From: a virus
Strand: one strand, 5' to 3'
DNA: 30,617 nucleotides
IMG/VR virus record: IMGVR_UViG_3300009537_000113
Coordinates: 1 to 30,617 of that record
Shown here: positions 5,686 to 13,841 of the stretch, in pieces
Position numbering within the stretch: position 1 is the first letter of the stretch
Layout of the letters: each line of letters opens with the position of its first letter
The notes under the pieces: generated by a model
Told to the model about the DNA's origin: nothing
The model's database searches: none
What the model saw: only the letters and a program-made list of their open reading frames with translations
Translations under genes and position numbers: made by a program

Positions 5686-6303
5686 GTGAACCTCTTTGTG
5701 GTCCATCCCTGCCCATTCACTTGCGCCATCGCGCTGGATGACAAACGGGTCAACAAGATCCTGCTCGAGACCGCGCAGATCCTGTGTACGGTGACGGGTC
5801 ACAGCGCGTATCGTCCGACGCATCGAAACCATCCAGTCGTTCGATGGGCAAGACGACACGTTCGACATACTTATTGGGTGTACCTGTATCACCTGGCTCT
5901 GGCTGCCGAGTACACCCACCGCACCTCGCGCTCTCACAAGTCGTGGGCGGATGTCGGTGCTCAACTGAGATTGAGGCGACAGCCTCCGCCGCATGAGTTC
6001 TGGAATCAGACCCCCTATACGGCGTCTGTGCATACGTCTTACCGCTGGTACTTGCGCGACAAATGGCGCAGCGACACGCGACCGCCGAAGTGGACTCATC
6101 GCTCGCCTCCCGACTGGCCGAACTATGGGGACGAGTATGACCTCCACAACCTACGGTTCCACGTTCATCGCGTTCAGGAGGATGGGGTTGCTATTCTTCA
6201 CGCGCCGGGAGACGGGTTCATCTACGTCAATTCGCCGGAGCTCGAGGCAATGACCAAAGCTCGTTCACGCCCTTACCCTTCTTCAAGACGCCCATCTCGT
6301 TAG
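5686..6303 (+). CDS. Probable pyrimidine-dimer DNA glycosylase-like protein
   Basis: 205 residues from a GTG start at 5686 with only a weak ribosome site. The N-terminus has the order FVVHPCPFTCAIALDD, then KRVNKILLETAQIL, then HRNHPVVRWAR, then a helix with Tyr/Trp (TYWVYLYHLALAAEY). This matches phage proteins annotated in the Pyr_excise group: a conserved Asp-Lys/Arg-His/Arg-Val start, a LETAQ helix and an NHP motif. Such proteins are presumed to repair UV damage, though the link to T4 endonuclease V is distant. Its last 77 bases overlap, tail to tail, the end of the primase-helicase gene on the other strand, so its final 25 residues may not be conserved. Confidence 0.6.
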   Translation: MNLFVVHPCPFTCAIALDDKRVNKILLETAQILCTVTGHSAYRPTHRNHPVVRWARRHVRHTYWVYLYHLALAAEYTHRTSRSHKSWADVGAQLRLRRQPPPHEFWNQTPYTASVHTSYRWYLRDKWRSDTRPPKWTHRSPPDWPNYGDEYDLHNLRFHVHRVQEDGVAILHAPGDGFIYVNSPELEAMTKARSRPYPSSRRPSR

Positions 6304-8372: not shown

Positions 8373-8879
8373 ATGAACATTGTGCTCGAGGGCCCCGATG
8401 GCGGGGGGAAGTCGACGCTAGCACAACGGTTGGCGGAGAGCTTCGATGATTTCCGCATTCAGCCGAGCGAAGGACGCGACAAGTACCCCGGCGAGCAGAA
8501 CGAACGTGTCGAGCGATACTTGATGATGCAGAACGTCTTGTTTGACCGTCACCCGGCGATCTCGCAGGACATCTACTGCATGATCCGCGGCGGACACGAG
8601 ACCTGTGACCCTCAGTTGGTGGCGAGGTTCTATACGACAGATCCTGTCATCGTGTACTGTCGGGTCACTGATGCCGCCACAGCGCTGGGTCATCATGTCA
8701 TCAAGGACCACGACACGCCCGAACACCTGAGGCAGGTCGAGGAGAATTACGATACGCTCATCCGTCACTATGATGAGTGGGCGCTCGAGCACGCGCATAT
8801 CATCTACCGAATAGGTGACTCGCCCAAGCCGGTGTTGGCGTTCATCCGCCGTCGTATCTATGAGGCGAGAGTGGCGTGA
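8373..8879 (+). CDS. Deoxynucleoside monophosphate kinase (thymidylate kinase-like)
   Basis: 168 residues; ATG at 8373 follows CGGAGA. A longer in-frame start lies inside the promoter and is rejected. The N-terminus MNIVLEGPDGGGKSTLA has the P-loop (residues 7-15) of the thymidylate kinase family, and FDRHPAISQDIYC (about 57-69) is the DR..S..Y nucleotide-binding motif. The enzyme would phosphorylate dTMP or a modified dNMP to the diphosphate. It is the first gene of a coupled run (8373-11319) of nucleotide enzymes, so the substrate may be the hydroxymethylated nucleotide made by its neighbours, as for T4 gene 1. Confidence 0.8.
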   Translation: MNIVLEGPDGGGKSTLAQRLAESFDDFRIQPSEGRDKYPGEQNERVERYLMMQNVLFDRHPAISQDIYCMIRGGHETCDPQLVARFYTTDPVIVYCRVTDAATALGHHVIKDHDTPEHLRQVEENYDTLIRHYDEWALEHAHIIYRIGDSPKPVLAFIRRRIYEARVA

Positions 8880-9670
8880 GGAAAGCCTTTCTGCAACAAG
8901 CGCTGAAGATGGCCGGTACGGAAGCCGACTTCTACAGTGGATGTCGCAAGATCCTGCAACGCCGCAGGCTGCGGTTCAAGCTCAAGGACGACTTCGCCAT
9001 CAAGGATTGCGGGTTCACGAAGACCAAGCTCACGCTGCTGCGCAAGCTGTATCTCCACGACGAGAGTCGGGACATGGCGGTGAAGCTGTGGCATCGCCGG
9101 CTCGAGCAGAAGAAGTACGGCAGTGTGGGGTTCACCTGCTACAACCACCTGCTCAAGGCTGACCCGTCGAAGAAGAGCAAGCGCGCCAGCGTCATGGGCC
9201 CGTGTATCCAGGCCGTCACGCTCACACTGAATGAGCGGGGCAGTGTCAACATCGATGCGTTCTACCGCACCACCGAGCTGTTCAAAAAGTTCCCGGCGGA
9301 CCTGGTGTTCATGCGCGACGAGTTGCTTGAGCCGTTCGAGCTCGAGAACCCGACGGTCACGTGCCACTTCGCCAACATCACGTGCCATCCGATGTACTTC
9401 GTGACTCTGGTGCCTCTGATGGACCGACCGATCCAGGCGTTCGAGGATCTGCGGCACGACGAGCACTTCTACAACTGGTGCGTCAAGTGGACGGCCCGGT
9501 ACGTCTGCGAGGAGAACTCGCGCGGCATCCAGAAGTTCGCGCAGGCTCTCCGCGTACAAAAGGACGCGCTCGAACGCATCGAGCCCAAGCAGCTGAAGAA
9601 GCTGCAAGCGTATCTACGAAAGAACCACCCCGGGTACCGCAACGACTACGAAGGAGATGACGATGAGTAG
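8876..9670 (+). CDS. Divergent thymidylate synthase-family protein (possible dNMP hydroxymethylase)
   Basis: 264 residues; GTG start overlapping the kinase stop (GTGA). The central part fits the ThyA fold. MGPC110IQ carries the catalytic Cys. Twenty-one residues later comes YR131TTELFKKFPAD142, the phosphate-binding and base-recognition segment. ANITCHPMYF corresponds to the sugar-binding HxY region. The residue 11 after the Arg is Asp where dUMP-specific enzymes have Asn. The conserved RSxD is weakened to RTTE, and the N-terminal 80 residues are not recognisable. It may be a second hydroxymethylase, a non-catalytic partner of the ThyA-like protein at 10079, or an enzyme with another substrate. 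The family call is moderately secure; the reaction is inferred. Confidence 0.6.
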   Translation: MRKAFLQQALKMAGTEADFYSGCRKILQRRRLRFKLKDDFAIKDCGFTKTKLTLLRKLYLHDESRDMAVKLWHRRLEQKKYGSVGFTCYNHLLKADPSKKSKRASVMGPCIQAVTLTLNERGSVNIDAFYRTTELFKKFPADLVFMRDELLEPFELENPTVTCHFANITCHPMYFVTLVPLMDRPIQAFEDLRHDEHFYNWCVKWTARYVCEENSRGIQKFAQALRVQKDALERIEPKQLKKLQAYLRKNHPGYRNDYEGDDDE

Positions 9671-10082
9671 ATTCACAGAGGACCTGGAAGCATTCCACAT
9701 CAAGTACGGGCTCGAGTACACCGGCATGCCGCGCATGCTCCCAGGAGAGTTGCTCGAGTTCAGAGTCAAGTTCCTTCAGGAGGAACTGCGTGAGTACATC
9801 GACCACATCTCGCAGGAAAACCAAACCGAAGCCTTGGTGCAGTCCCTGGACGCACTCGTCGATCTTGTATACGTTGCTATTGGAACGGCATACCTCCATG
9901 GTTTCAGCCCGGTCATCTTTGACGAAGCGTGGCGCCGCGTCCAAGAAGCGAACATGAGCAAGGTTCGCGCCGAGCGGGCGAGCGATTCCAAACGCGGCAG
10001 CACGTTCGATGTCGTCAAGCCCTCTGGATGGACACCTCCCGACCACACCGACTTGGTCAACGGGGTCTGGCGGCCCGCATGA
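9663..10082 (+). CDS. MazG/HisE-like nucleotide pyrophosphohydrolase
   Basis: 139 residues; I choose the ATG at 9663, seven bases after AAGGAG, over the one at 9657, which is too close. The all-alpha NTP pyrophosphohydrolase motif is visible: LQEELREYID (about 38-47), then LDALVDLVYVAIG (about 61-73), supplying the EExxE and ExxD-type metal ligands, followed by FDEAWRRVQEANMSKV, a segment typical of the phosphoribosyl-ATP pyrophosphohydrolase subgroup. In a phage nucleotide cassette this is likely a dNTP pyrophosphatase that removes an unwanted dNTP (such as dCTP, as T4 gp56 does) and supplies dNMP to the neighbouring enzymes. Its stop overlaps the next start (ATGA). Confidence 0.8.
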   Translation: MSRFTEDLEAFHIKYGLEYTGMPRMLPGELLEFRVKFLQEELREYIDHISQENQTEALVQSLDALVDLVYVAIGTAYLHGFSPVIFDEAWRRVQEANMSKVRAERASDSKRGSTFDVVKPSGWTPPDHTDLVNGVWRPA

Positions 10083-10867
10083 AACGCTACAACAATTTCC
10101 ACCTCGCTATTGAGAAGACGCGTGATGAGCTGCGGTACACGAGCTCACTCGTACACCCGAGCAAGTGGCAGAGCATCGATGTCAGCGACAAGCCGGACAT
10201 GGCGACCTACGAGATCCTCAATCACTCGTTCCAGGTGCCCCTGTTCAGCGAGAACCTCGAGCATCTTCGCGGCGACATCGAGCCCAACCTGCCTTGGGCG
10301 GACGACCACTTTGAGGAGCGCGTCGGCGAGGAGCCGCTGAATCCCGGCGAGCAATGGAAGAACTGGCCCTACGCCCACAGCGCTGACCGATTCCGCACCG
10401 AAGGCGAGCAGTTCTCCCACACCTACATGGAGCGGTATTGGCCGAAGCGAGCGGGCAACAAGGCCGACGCATTCAAGCCTCACCTCGGCATCCGATACCG
10501 GTATGGCGACCTTCTGGACGTGGTCGATCTTCTGCAGCGCGAGCCTCTGACGAGGCAGGCTTATCTGCCGATCTTCTTCCCCGAGGATACGGGCGTGCAC
10601 CACGGTGAGCGCGTGCCTTGTACGCTCGGGTACCACTTCATCATGCGGCACGGGTACCTGCATTGCGTGTACTACATCCGTAGCTGCGACTTCGTGCGGC
10701 ACTTCCGCGATGACATCTACCTGACCGTGCGTCTGCAGCTGTGGGTCCTCGAGCGCATGCGCAAGACCCCTGGGTGTGAGAACGTCAAGCCGGGGACGAT
10801 GACCATGCACACTACGTCCATGCATATGTTCCGCAACGACTACCTGCAACGGTGGGGGGACCGATGA
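10079..10867 (+). CDS. Thymidylate synthase-family dNMP hydroxymethylase, probably acting on dCMP
   Basis: 262 residues; ATG overlapping the previous stop. ThyA-family features are clear in the C-terminal half: catalytic C181 in RVPCTLGYHF, then R201-S-C-D204 in the phosphate and base site, and MHTTSMHMF (about 243-251) in place of the usual HxY sugar site (Tyr to Phe). The segment RSCDFVRHFRDDI aligns closely with RSNDVVFGFRNDY of T4 dCMP hydroxymethylase, and D212 falls exactly at T4 Asp179, the residue that selects cytosine; thymidylate synthases have Asn there. I infer that it converts dCMP to 5-hydroxymethyl-dCMP using methylene-tetrahydrofolate. It sits between a pyrophosphohydrolase and a dCMP deaminase. 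Confidence 0.75.
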   Translation: MKRYNNFHLAIEKTRDELRYTSSLVHPSKWQSIDVSDKPDMATYEILNHSFQVPLFSENLEHLRGDIEPNLPWADDHFEERVGEEPLNPGEQWKNWPYAHSADRFRTEGEQFSHTYMERYWPKRAGNKADAFKPHLGIRYRYGDLLDVVDLLQREPLTRQAYLPIFFPEDTGVHHGERVPCTLGYHFIMRHGYLHCVYYIRSCDFVRHFRDDIYLTVRLQLWVLERMRKTPGCENVKPGTMTMHTTSMHMFRNDYLQRWGDR

Positions 10868-11319
10868 GGATCTCGCGCCACAACATGTTTATGAAGATGG
10901 CGCGCGCTGCATCCCAGCGCTCGACCTGCCATCGCCTGAACGTAGGTGCCATCCTCGTCCTCGAGAACAATGTCATAGCGACAGGATATAACGGTGCTGT
11001 GTCAGGAGCACCTCACTGTGGCGGAACCGATTGCCAATACTTCGAGCGCGGCGCATGTACCGTGGTCCATGCCGAGGAGAATGCGATTCAGCGTCTCGCC
11101 CTGACTGCCTTCCCAGATACCCTCTATGTCACCCACTCGCCGTGTATGCGCTGCGCTGAGATGCTCGTCAAACTCGGCGTCCAGGCCGTGTACTTCGAGG
11201 TGCCGTATCGCAAGCCACAGGCTATCGACTTCATGGTCGAGAACGGCATCGACGTATATCAACTGACGCCGGGCGGATACCGCGTCAACCAGAAGACATT
11301 GGTTGTCGAGCAACTGTGA
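10864..11319 (+). CDS. dCMP deaminase (ComE/Dcd family)
   Basis: 151 residues starting at the ATG that overlaps the preceding stop (ATGA); an upstream ATG at 10852 is inside the previous gene. The zinc site is intact: H69-A-E71 in VVHAEENAIQ and PC94MRC97. Further Cys/His residues near the N-terminus (HCGGTDC, about 51-57) match the second metal site of phage dCMP deaminases. The enzyme converts dCMP to dUMP, feeding thymidylate or hydroxymethyl-dUMP synthesis. The next gene starts on its stop codon (GTGA). Its presence beside a presumed dCMP hydroxymethylase mirrors T4, where both are made. Confidence 0.9.
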   Translation: MRISRHNMFMKMARAASQRSTCHRLNVGAILVLENNVIATGYNGAVSGAPHCGGTDCQYFERGACTVVHAEENAIQRLALTAFPDTLYVTHSPCMRCAEMLVKLGVQAVYFEVPYRKPQAIDFMVENGIDVYQLTPGGYRVNQKTLVVEQL

Positions 11320-13841
11320 GAGGCCTACAGAAATACCGCGACCCCGACTGCACCGACTGCCGACTGCATAAGACCGCTCAGTTCGTATGTCTGCTTGGCG
11401 ACGGACCTGTGCCGTGCGACATTATGATAGTCGGCGAGGCTCCGGGCAAGCGAGAGGACGCGAGCGGTGTACCATTCATAGGACGTGCGGGGCAGTTGCT
11501 TGACGAGTTGCTCGAGGAGCACGGCATAGGACGGAAGCAGTGCTTCATCACCAACGCCGTCAGCTGCCGCCCGCCAGGCAACAAGACGCCCACGAAGGGC
11601 GAGATCAAGAAGTGCAAGCACTGGCTCGAACTTCAGATCAAGAAGGTTAAGCCAAAGTACGTTCTGCTGCTTGGCAATGTTCCGTTGATCTCGGTCACCG
11701 GTAAGGCGGGCATCAAGAAGATGCGGGGTCGAGCGTTTGAGTTGGATGGCATCACGTACCTGCCGACGTTCCATCCCGCGTTCATCCTGCGAGATGACAA
11801 GAACCGCCCTCAGCTCGAGGCGGATGTAAGGTTCTTCGCCGAGATCGTCAAGAACAGGGGCATCCCACGAGAGGAGGGCCTCAACCACGTCATCGTCGAT
11901 GACAAGTCCGGCTTCCAGGATATGCTCGACGACATGAGCGGCCTCGTGTCCTTCGACGTCGAGACTACGGGCCTGTACCCGTGGGACCCGGTCATCGATC
12001 TCCCGCCGAATCCGAAGTATCCCGACGTGCCGCGCAAGAAGGGCGTGGTATCGCTCGGCATCGGTACACGACACAGGCAATGGTGTCTGCCGCTCGCACA
12101 CCCGGGAGCACCCCGGTGGCGTCATCTGCCGAAGATGATAGAAGCGCTTGACCAGCGATTCCACGACTGCGAGGTAGCAGCGCAGTTCGGCAAGTTCGAT
12201 TGCCTGTGGATGCGCGTCATGCACGGCGTCCGCTGGTATCACGACTTCGACACAGGCCTGGCACACTACCTCCTCAATGAGAACATGCGACACGGCTTGA
12301 AGCTGCTAGCGCAGGTGGAGTACGGCGCGCCTGACTTCGACGAGTCAATCGGCATGAAGACAGGCGCCGAAGGGTCACTCGAGGACCATTGCTACTACCT
12401 CGCCCATGACCTTTACTATACGCGGAAACTGCGCTTCACGCTGGGCAAGAGACTGCGACAGGACCCGGGCGTCCAGCAGGTGTTCGACAATATCCTCATG
12501 CCGTGCTCTCGACTGTTCACTGACATCGAGCATCACGGAGTCTACGTCGACCGACCCGAGTTCAAGAAGGCCGAGAAGTACCTGCTCGAGCAGATCGCGA
12601 AGGCAGAGGCCAAGCTCAAGAAGATAGCTGACATTAACTGGGGCTCAACGCAGCAGGTAGCCAAGGTCCTGTACGGCAAGTTCAAGTTGCCGGTGATGGA
12701 GAAGACGAAGACAGGCGCACCATCCACCGGCGAGAGCGCACTCAACCAGCTCGATCACCCGGTGGTGAAGACGCTGCTCGAGTTCCGCGGGCACAGACAG
12801 CAGTACAACTTCTTTATCAAGGGGTGGAAGCCGTTCCTCGTGGACGGACGCATGCACCCCAGCTTCAAACTCCACGGTGCAGTGACCGGTCGACCGTCCT
12901 GTGAGCATCCAAACTTGCAACAGGTCCCGCGCGACTCGCTTATCCGGTCGCTCATCACTGCACCACCAGGCTGGGTGCTTGTTGAGGGCGACCTGTCCCA
13001 GATCGAGATGCGCATTGCCGGCGAACTCAGCGGTGACCCGACCCTGCTCCGCTGCTTCAATGAAGGGATTGATGTACATTGGCAGACGGCCGTCCGGGAG
13101 ATGGAACGCGGCGGTGCTGAGCCGGAGTTGGTCAAGGAAACAGCATTCAAGTACAGCGGGCAGAGGCTGAACTACGGCGATGCGATTGAGGTCATCCATG
13201 CGATGGGACCGGACGTCGCCATCGAGCTATTCCCCGAGTGGAAGGAGTTGAGGAAGAAGGCCAAGGCGGTGAACTTCGGGTACCTGTTCGGGATGTGGTG
13301 GAAGAAGTTCAAGGCCTATGCCCGTGACAACTACGGGGTCATCATCACGGATGACCAGGCCCGCGAGAGTCGAGAGGCGTACTTCGAGCTATACGATGGG
13401 CTGCCGGGCTGGCACGAGCGACAGCGCCGCTTCGCGCGCCGTAACGGTTATGTCCGATGCCTCAGTGGTCGCAAGCGTCGACTCCCCGACGCACTCTCAC
13501 CGCACGACACGCCGGCTAGGGGGGAGGCCTTGCGCCAAGCAATCAACTCGCCTGTCCAGGGGTTCGCGTCAGAACTCAACCTCATGGTGGCGTTGCAGAT
13601 GGCCGAGGAGTTCTCACGCAACGTGTTCCGGCCCATCGGCACAGTACATGACTCGATGCTTGCCGAAGTGCGCAAGTCAGCGCTGACGAAGGTCTGTACT
13701 CGCTGGCTCCAGATCATGGAGGGCCCGGCGATGCTGGAGAGGCTAGATATCAAAGTCCGTGTACCGCTCCGAGGCGACGTAGCAGTCGGCCCGTGGAGCA
13801 AGGGGAAGACATTCCATGCCGTTCAAGATCAGCCAGTCTAA
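11316..13841 (+). CDS. Family-4 uracil-DNA glycosylase fused to DNA polymerase I
   Basis: 841 residues, GTG start coupled to the deaminase. Residues 1-180 are a family 4 uracil-DNA glycosylase: GEAPGKREDASGVPFIGRAG (40-59), the HPA motif (about 153-155) and all four iron-sulphur cysteines (C12, C15, C84, C100). Residues about 195-400 are the 3'-5' proofreading exonuclease (D214 and E216 in FDVETTG; FD in QFGKFDCLW; YLAHD). The polymerase follows: motif A GDLSQIEMRIAG (about 555), motif B KAVNFGYLFG (about 650) and motif C VHDSM (about 776). Two variations stand out: the motif B Tyr is Phe, and motif C has Ser after the catalytic Asp, where Glu is usual. The phage SPO1 polymerase also has a UDG-like N-terminus. 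This is the replicative polymerase. Confidence 0.93.
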   Translation: MRGLQKYRDPDCTDCRLHKTAQFVCLLGDGPVPCDIMIVGEAPGKREDASGVPFIGRAGQLLDELLEEHGIGRKQCFITNAVSCRPPGNKTPTKGEIKKCKHWLELQIKKVKPKYVLLLGNVPLISVTGKAGIKKMRGRAFELDGITYLPTFHPAFILRDDKNRPQLEADVRFFAEIVKNRGIPREEGLNHVIVDDKSGFQDMLDDMSGLVSFDVETTGLYPWDPVIDLPPNPKYPDVPRKKGVVSLGIGTRHRQWCLPLAHPGAPRWRHLPKMIEALDQRFHDCEVAAQFGKFDCLWMRVMHGVRWYHDFDTGLAHYLLNENMRHGLKLLAQVEYGAPDFDESIGMKTGAEGSLEDHCYYLAHDLYYTRKLRFTLGKRLRQDPGVQQVFDNILMPCSRLFTDIEHHGVYVDRPEFKKAEKYLLEQIAKAEAKLKKIADINWGSTQQVAKVLYGKFKLPVMEKTKTGAPSTGESALNQLDHPVVKTLLEFRGHRQQYNFFIKGWKPFLVDGRMHPSFKLHGAVTGRPSCEHPNLQQVPRDSLIRSLITAPPGWVLVEGDLSQIEMRIAGELSGDPTLLRCFNEGIDVHWQTAVREMERGGAEPELVKETAFKYSGQRLNYGDAIEVIHAMGPDVAIELFPEWKELRKKAKAVNFGYLFGMWWKKFKAYARDNYGVIITDDQARESREAYFELYDGLPGWHERQRRFARRNGYVRCLSGRKRRLPDALSPHDTPARGEALRQAINSPVQGFASELNLMVALQMAEEFSRNVFRPIGTVHDSMLAEVRKSALTKVCTRWLQIMEGPAMLERLDIKVRVPLRGDVAVGPWSKGKTFHAVQDQPV

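Follow-up and report, generated by a model that had tools for sequence, protein, structure and literature searches.

Several described enzymes that modify C5 of cytosine nucleotides have the thymidylate synthase (TS) fold. Phage T4 gp42, a deoxycytidine monophosphate (dCMP) hydroxymethylase, has a catalytic Cys, an Arg and a cytosine-type Asp but no TS C-terminal tail, and T4 also has a kinase, a pyrophosphatase and a dCMP deaminase. RB69-type phages produce 5-hydroxy-dCMP via a TS-superfamily synthase, here represented by RB69 ORF048 and AfhB (PMC13390438), and MilA of the mildiomycin pathway is a cytidine monophosphate (CMP) hydroxymethylase that makes 5-hydroxymethyl-CMP for the antibiotic (PMC5175136). 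In the MetaGPA study, TS proteins with Asp at position 177 (E. coli TS numbering) came mostly from modified-cytosine contigs and were accompanied there by domains of the PRA-PH and dCMP deaminase families (PMC8670742). Here we analyzed the IMG/VR virus record IMGVR_UViG_3300009537_000113 at its full length of 30,617 bases (the window), whose sheath, baseplate, tape-measure and neck genes on the minus strand identify a contractile-tailed phage. It carries a gene cassette encoding two TS-like proteins, here named B and D. D belongs to the cytosine type of the TS superfamily, and B is a member of an unannotated superfamily that depends on D; among the hits listed in searches of the open literature, none described B or its pairing with D.

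B and D are paired across phages

Six plus-strand genes span positions 8373 to 13841 of the window. They follow each other in the order (5' to 3') kinase, B, MazG-like pyrophosphohydrolase, D, dCMP deaminase and a DNA polymerase I (PolA) fused to a uracil-DNA glycosylase (UDG) domain, with overlaps of 4, 14, 4, 4 and 4 nucleotides at the five junctions. An earlier note on this DNA had described five coupled genes at 8373-11319; its coordinates were right, and the families it named fit all of them except B, which Pfam does not name. Family scans with Pfam and PHROG backed every other cassette gene (Table 1), the kinase additionally matching AAA_28 (27.3 bits; cut-off, 27).

Loci retrieved by B alone held D in 56 of 57 cases, in each of them downstream and within 1.2 kb by domain ends. 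Companion and locus counts were based on hidden Markov models (HMMs), and the 57 loci comprise 55 plus two from a further retrieval, several being redundant or contained in earlier sets. The exception (L221; L numbers denote retrieved loci) is one end of a 57.4-kb contig, with D at the other end (L071). The order is not absolute: in L022 and L029, B follows D at a distance of ~5.6 kb. No B-D fusion was present among the 57 loci. In phage records, tblastn found D in 106 of 50,697, with identity below 60% throughout. A Muddy-type companion was found in 85 phage records (Gordonia, 68; Mycobacterium, 9; Streptomyces, 4; Microbacterium, 2; Mycobacteroides, 1; Curtobacterium, 1) and a Lebethron-type companion in 15, and the window type added Brevundimonas (2) and Desulfofustis (1). 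The resulting 103 companion records versus 106 D-bearing records agree with the D organism tallies; both figures are organism tallies rather than accession-by-accession matches, and the matches listed leave out 46 rows for D and 25 for companions. Two of the three D phage records lacking a companion were remote matches of 27% identity (MT836181 and MT121960, among the matches listed). The earlier observation was thus confirmed and is more than chance; the pairing of B with D is real and wide, and B depends on D.

B belongs to an unannotated superfamily with a predicted TS fold

No credible Pfam family was found for B (one match, E = 0.13), and its only PHROG match was phrog_34294 (0.0039), a family of unknown function. 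Searching the B profile against Protein Data Bank (PDB) sequences gave a single chance match, to a cytolysin (E = 1.1), and no TS. The AlphaFold model of B, built from 35 window and IMG/VR sequences, reached a predicted local distance difference test (pLDDT) score of 90.9 and a predicted template modeling (pTM) score of 0.87. It matched AfhB with Z = 12.2 over 174 residues at 3.7 Å (11.8 to 12.2 for RB69 ORF048 and AfhB together); 396 of the 999 compared chains reached Z of 8 or more, with the TS family among the matches listed. Foldseek gave E = 8e-5 at a template modeling (TM) score of ~0.45. The better structural matches span residues 1 to 183, and the helical tail (184 to 264) is barely covered. 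By sequence alone the relationship is weak: profile-profile alignment (hhalign) of the B superfamily yielded P values of 7e-4 with RB69, 2e-3 with ThyA and 8e-3 with D, with the Cys, Arg and Asp in register, and B aligned directly with D fell short of significance (P = 0.18; 0.11 for the B type of companion, 0.22 for the C type and 0.0076 for the whole superfamily). We assigned B to the TS fold because of its predicted structure together with the shared Cys/Arg/Asp register, and the proposal in the earlier note that both proteins are of the ThyA family agrees with the TS fold of both predicted structures.

The residues that the earlier note had singled out, C110, R131 and D142 in B and C181, R201 and D212 in D, are present as numbered and conserved. 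Those of B occur in 42/43 rows (the remaining row is gapped here), in 39/39 of the B type and in 36/36 of the wider superfamily, in which only these three and Y59 are invariant (36 members chosen from 58 distinct ones). Its description of D142 as a dCMP-type Asp was supported: this column coincides with the Asp of RB69 and with the Asn177 position of ThyA, although the alignments of B with RB69 and ThyA are weak by sequence alone (P values above). The Glu that activates methylene-tetrahydrofolate (methylene-THF) in TS (Glu58/60) has no invariant counterpart in the 36 aligned members, nor does the arginine pair lent to the neighboring subunit. Within the B type just one Glu is invariant, E134, which occupies the place of TS Asp169.

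At other D loci the companion proteins match phrog_34294 or phrog_13667, and B itself has its weak match to the former. PHROG gives neither family a function, a fold or a link to D, whereas our comparisons join them. Profiles built from C-type and from B-type members only aligned with each other over 220 columns (P = 1.4e-11), and an iterated HMM seeded with Muddy gp47 recruited B, which places the relatives of both families in one superfamily as judged by sequence. A superfamily filed as being of unknown function is hereby tied to putative cytosine modification in ~100 sequenced phage records, including that of Muddy, a phage used in therapy (PMC10893344). Three very divergent members, at L054 5447-6385, L077 1041-1937 and L080 6124-6936, were recruited only by iteration and bridge the phrog_34294 and phrog_13667 groups.

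D is a cytosine-type member of the TS superfamily

D scored 23.6 bits against PF00303, slightly below the cut-off of 24.3, and most of its relatives are annotated "thymidylate synthase." Relatives from IMG/VR were collected by a pattern scan (best 80 of 113 matched stretches). C181, R201 and D212 were kept in 82/82 relatives of a first alignment and in 87/87 distinct relatives, as were R159, Q160, Y116, H249 and R178 (each 87/87). In hhalign alignments D212 sits on T4 Asp179, bearing out the equivalence proposed earlier, so that position 177 is Asp in all 87 relatives and not the Asn of TS specific for deoxyuridine monophosphate (dUMP) or of the SPO1-type system. After His249-Phe251, D lacks the TS C-terminal tail, like T4 gp42. 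The structure closest to the AlphaFold model was MilA, which superimposed over 218 residues at 2.5 Å; AfhB followed (Z = 19.2 and 18.9), together with many ordinary TS (Z of 18 to 19). Since nearly all matches lie within ~1 unit, the fold is silent on which reaction D runs. On T4 Glu60, the methylene-THF-activating residue, the alignments disagree: E80 of D is invariant, but hhalign sets the region of Asn70 against Glu60. In Microbacterium phage Triscuit (gp66 and gp67; L102 6932-8637), D directly precedes a canonical ThyA with Asn, so that a dCMP-type and a dUMP-type enzyme are both kept.

Proposed pathway

We consider it probable that the cassette reshapes the pool of cytosine nucleotides in the infected cell, with D making a C5-substituted dCMP and B serving as a D-dependent second component, either a partner subunit or a tailoring enzyme. 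Of the neighboring genes, those for the kinase, the pyrophosphohydrolase and the dCMP deaminase fit a cytosine-replacement pathway following the logic of T4. The MetaGPA result lends independent support to cytosine modification by such cassettes, although it came from an analysis of Pfam domains, of which B has none (PMC8670742). Gene order and overlaps, TS folds, conserved residues and the dependence of B on D are computational results, and substrate, product, order of the steps and modified cytosine in the virion are inferred. The pyrophosphohydrolase would lower unmodified deoxycytidine triphosphate, while D would pick cytosine via Asp212, attack C6 with Cys181 and add a hydroxymethyl or a bare hydroxyl group at C5 of dCMP. 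The kinase would take this product toward the triphosphate, the deaminase would divert leftover dCMP to dUMP, and PolA would incorporate the modified nucleotide. B would need D in order to work, either joining it as a partner subunit or taking over its product as the next enzyme, and would not be a redundant second hydroxymethylase.

Several observations weigh against this scheme. D lacks the acid found at one active-site position of T4 gp42 (see below), and its reaction may differ. B has no convincing sequence match to any TS, its placement coming from a predicted structure with a Foldseek TM score of ~0.45. Moreover, 33 IMG/VR records with D showed no companion in the fetched stretch; 32 had none record-wide, and one, that of L071, has its companion elsewhere. 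Six of these 33 are shorter than 12 kb and four measure 219 to 319 kb, and any of them may be a fragment. D can thus do without B in some phages.

Under the proposed scheme, phages that are already cultivable should carry modified cytosine in their DNA, with consequences for their encounters with restriction and CRISPR. The published papers on phages PMBT14 and Desulfofustis MD02 contained no mention of DNA modification by this pathway in the terms searched.

Comparison of D with dCMP hydroxymethylases and hydroxylases

In T4 gp42, Asp145, three residues before the catalytic Cys (Cys-3), is essential for hydroxymethylation: the D145N variant forms no 5-hydroxymethyl-dCMP, and some phages have Glu at this place (PMC6400193). 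D does not carry this Asp/Glu signature, R178 occupying the position in all 87 relatives. Asp was found in 52 of 55 distinct T4-type rows (the other 3 were not located by motif) and Glu in 15/15 RB69-type rows. MilA, which differs from D by an extra C-terminal domain (PMC5175136), has Asp there in a sequence-profile alignment. So does a dCMP-type TS of phage AXL3, a phage with DNA that resisted all but 2 of 37 enzymes (PMC7504290); this protein falls outside the D clade and is an analogy only, and the B and C models matched none of the five cassette proteins of AXL3 that were compared with them. D further differs from T4 gp42 by His114 at the position of Ser94 (86/87) and by the companion B in its cassette.

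Profile-profile scores put D nearest to the T4 family (8e-13, versus 3e-10 for RB69, whose profile is shallow), whereas sequence-profile searches ranked MilA (3.7e-7) and AfhB (6.9e-7) ahead of T4 gp42 (3.5e-5). On trees, D grouped with RB69, with a support of 0.71 in FastTree and an ultrafast bootstrap value of 95 in an IQ-TREE subset (30 D, 8 RB69-type and 11 T4-type rows, AXL3 and one ThyA; 202 columns; MilA not included). RB69 ORF048 also has Asp at position 177 and shares with D Tyr214 (87/87) and Phe251 (80/87; His in 7). PDB entry 9iqu is titled a dCMP hydroxylase, and its aligned stretch reads identical to RB69 ORF048. Because Arg replaces the Cys-3 acid and the tree neighbor is RB69/AfhB, we do not assign D as a T4-type dCMP hydroxymethylase; it probably works like a dCMP C5-modifying enzyme.

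The bootstrap value of 95 also gives weight to the explanation that D acts as a dCMP 5-hydroxylase, like AfhB and its RB69 counterpart, in which case the base would be 5-hydroxycytosine or a derivative and not hydroxymethylcytosine. The better profile match to AfhB than to T4 gp42, the shared Tyr and Phe and the known product of RB69-type enzymes (PMC13390438) are all in line with it. It is countered by the stronger profile-profile score to the T4 family, by the Glu of RB69-type rows where D has Arg, by MilA, a hydroxymethylase that scores as well as AfhB, and by the small sampling of the trees, and we regard it as possible but doubtful. The phage DNA likely contains modified cytosine. The earlier note had proposed that hydroxymethylcytosine or a derivative replaces cytosine: the cytosine-type Asp, kinase, pyrophosphohydrolase and deaminase fit such a replacement, but given the Arg at Cys-3 and the RB69/AfhB grouping, 5-hydroxymethylcytosine as the product is only partly supported and not established.

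Possible roles of B and loci without B

B may be a partner subunit, a tailoring enzyme acting on the product of D or a dCMP-binding regulator. Catalysis on a cytosine nucleotide is favored by the Cys and Asp that B conserves, a second reaction with methylene-THF is disfavored by the lack of the Glu, and the occurrence of D without B speaks against an obligate subunit of every D, although no single point is decisive; if catalytic, B would be a TS-fold enzyme working without the folate-activating Glu. The earlier suggestion that one paralogue is a partner or acts on another base fared unevenly, since the dependence of B on D fits a partner but the invariant Asp argues for cytosine.

One explanation, which we hold only tentatively, is that D and B are obligate subunits of one heteromeric enzyme, with one dCMP site built by the D:B pair and a simple C5-modified dCMP as product. 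TS-family dimers share active sites and lend arginines to the neighbor, and in T4 and MilA phosphate is bound by partner-donated arginines (PMC6400193 and PMC5175136). D keeps Arg159 and Gln160, aligned with the Arg pair of T4, whereas B has no conserved pair; in addition, B was not seen without D, and D closely follows B in most loci. However, Arg159 and Gln160 are alike in D with and without B, and the 32 D-bearing records lacking B argue against B as an obligate subunit of every D. B also retains its own Cys and Asp, a MazG gene separates B from D in the window, the two genes are far apart in L022 and L029, and the 57 loci held no fusion.

In the D tree, loci without B fall in three places among companion-bearing loci (supports of 0.94, 0.84 and 1.00; neighboring nodes, 0.77 to 0.96): a clade of 16 rows, one of which has too little upstream sequence to judge, the group L026/L030/L034/L052 and the pair L061/L083. 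In all six records of the latter two groups, a C5-cytosine-methyltransferase homologue (PF00145) adjoins D or lies one open reading frame upstream (e.g., L026 3536-6703), compared with 1/39 companion-bearing records, where the match is distant (27%). The six homologues keep the Cys in a P-x-C stretch and read DDLP (five) or ENLP (one) at the place of ENV, which we take to be the usual motif. An asparagine-synthetase-like gene accompanies five of the six (in L030 the place is outside the retrieved stretch) and also occurs in L087 and L091, without the methyltransferase. The homologue of L034 (3964-6123) contains an intein-like/homing-nuclease-like insertion (PF14890, PF18741 and PF04480).

DNA C5-methyltransferases use the Cys-C6 chemistry that is also proposed below for B and can couple nucleophiles to hydroxymethylcytosine through an exocyclic methylene. 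A methyltransferase homologue beside D in branches lacking B would fit a functional replacement of B. It is conceivable, although we think it unlikely, that B is a folate-independent tailoring enzyme of the TS fold, whose Cys110 would attack C6 of 5-hydroxymethyl-dCMP made by D and expel the hydroxyl to form an exocyclic methylene, to which another nucleophile would be added; a hypermodified cytosine would thus be made at the mononucleotide stage and then polymerized.

Compared with the proposed remodeling of the cytosine pool, ordinary thymidylate metabolism, with D as a thymidylate synthase and B as an unrelated gene, is very improbable. The annotation of most relatives would suit it, and a kinase and a deaminase also serve the supply of deoxythymidine triphosphate, but D has the invariant Asp and no TS tail, Triscuit keeps D beside a separate canonical ThyA, and two relatives have an FAD-dependent thymidylate synthase as well. 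An SPO1-like hydroxymethyluracil system, raised as an alternative in the earlier note because of the UDG-PolA fusion directly downstream of the deaminase, is likewise very improbable, as the SPO1 enzyme and dUMP-using relatives have Asn where D has Asp (PMC5175136) and the UDG domain would equally fit removal of uracil arising after dCMP deamination.

Candidate decorating enzymes and other features of the window

Genes for enzymes that might decorate the modified base were sought in 21 records (15 with B and D, 3 with D only, T4, RB69 and AXL3). The carbamoyltransferase C-terminus, a point of contrast with the MetaGPA contigs, was found in 0/21, in a search that was insensitive, the T4 control with its two glucosyltransferases having scored nothing. 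Glycos_transf_1 was found in 2/21 at E ≤ 0.001, above the cut-off in one. Glycos_transf_2 was present in 3/21, namely, two large D-only records (L056, 219 kb; L079, 319 kb) and Zuko. This corresponds to 2/3 D-only versus 1/15 B-plus-D records and, with the silent T4 control, is only a hint.

Table 1. Cassette genes and base-selecting codons in the window
Feature	Position	Strand	Evidence
Deoxynucleoside monophosphate (thymidylate-kinase-like) kinase, first cassette gene, ATG start	8373..8879	+	phrog_761 thymidylate kinase 1.1e-16
B, divergent predicted TS-fold companion, 264 residues, GTG start (C110, R131, D142)	8876..9670	+	AlphaFold pLDDT 90.9; TS structures Z up to 12.2; superfamily alignments
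Codon of B Asp142, equivalent position	9299..9301	+	Asp in 36/36 aligned superfamily members
MazG/PRA-PH-type nucleotide pyrophosphohydrolase	9657..10082	+	PF01503 PRA-PH 1.1e-5; phrog_671 5.4e-23
D, TS-superfamily dCMP-type enzyme, 262 residues, ATG start (C181, R201, D212; R178 at Cys-3)	10079..10867	+	phrog_160 TS 5.6e-28; AlphaFold pLDDT 94.0; MilA Z 19.4; profile match T4 gp42 8e-13
Codon of D Asp212 (GAC), base-selecting position (T4 Asp179, E. coli TS Asn177)	10712..10714	+	Asp in 87/87 distinct relatives, aligned with T4 Asp179
dCMP deaminase, ATG start	10864..11319	+	PF00383 1.8e-21; phrog_174 1.7e-45
DNA polymerase I with N-terminal UDG domain, GTG start, overlaps deaminase gene	11316..13841	+	PF03167 residues 28-166 4.4e-32; PF00476 (DNA_pol_A) 6.7e-70

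Two further plus-strand genes of the window resemble proteins acting on DNA. The small protein encoded at 2578-3111 matches a phage DNA methyltransferase family (phrog_111, 1.2e-11) and had no Pfam match at 0.01, and the gene at 5686-6303 encodes a pyrimidine-dimer DNA glycosylase-like protein (PF03013, 1.3e-10).

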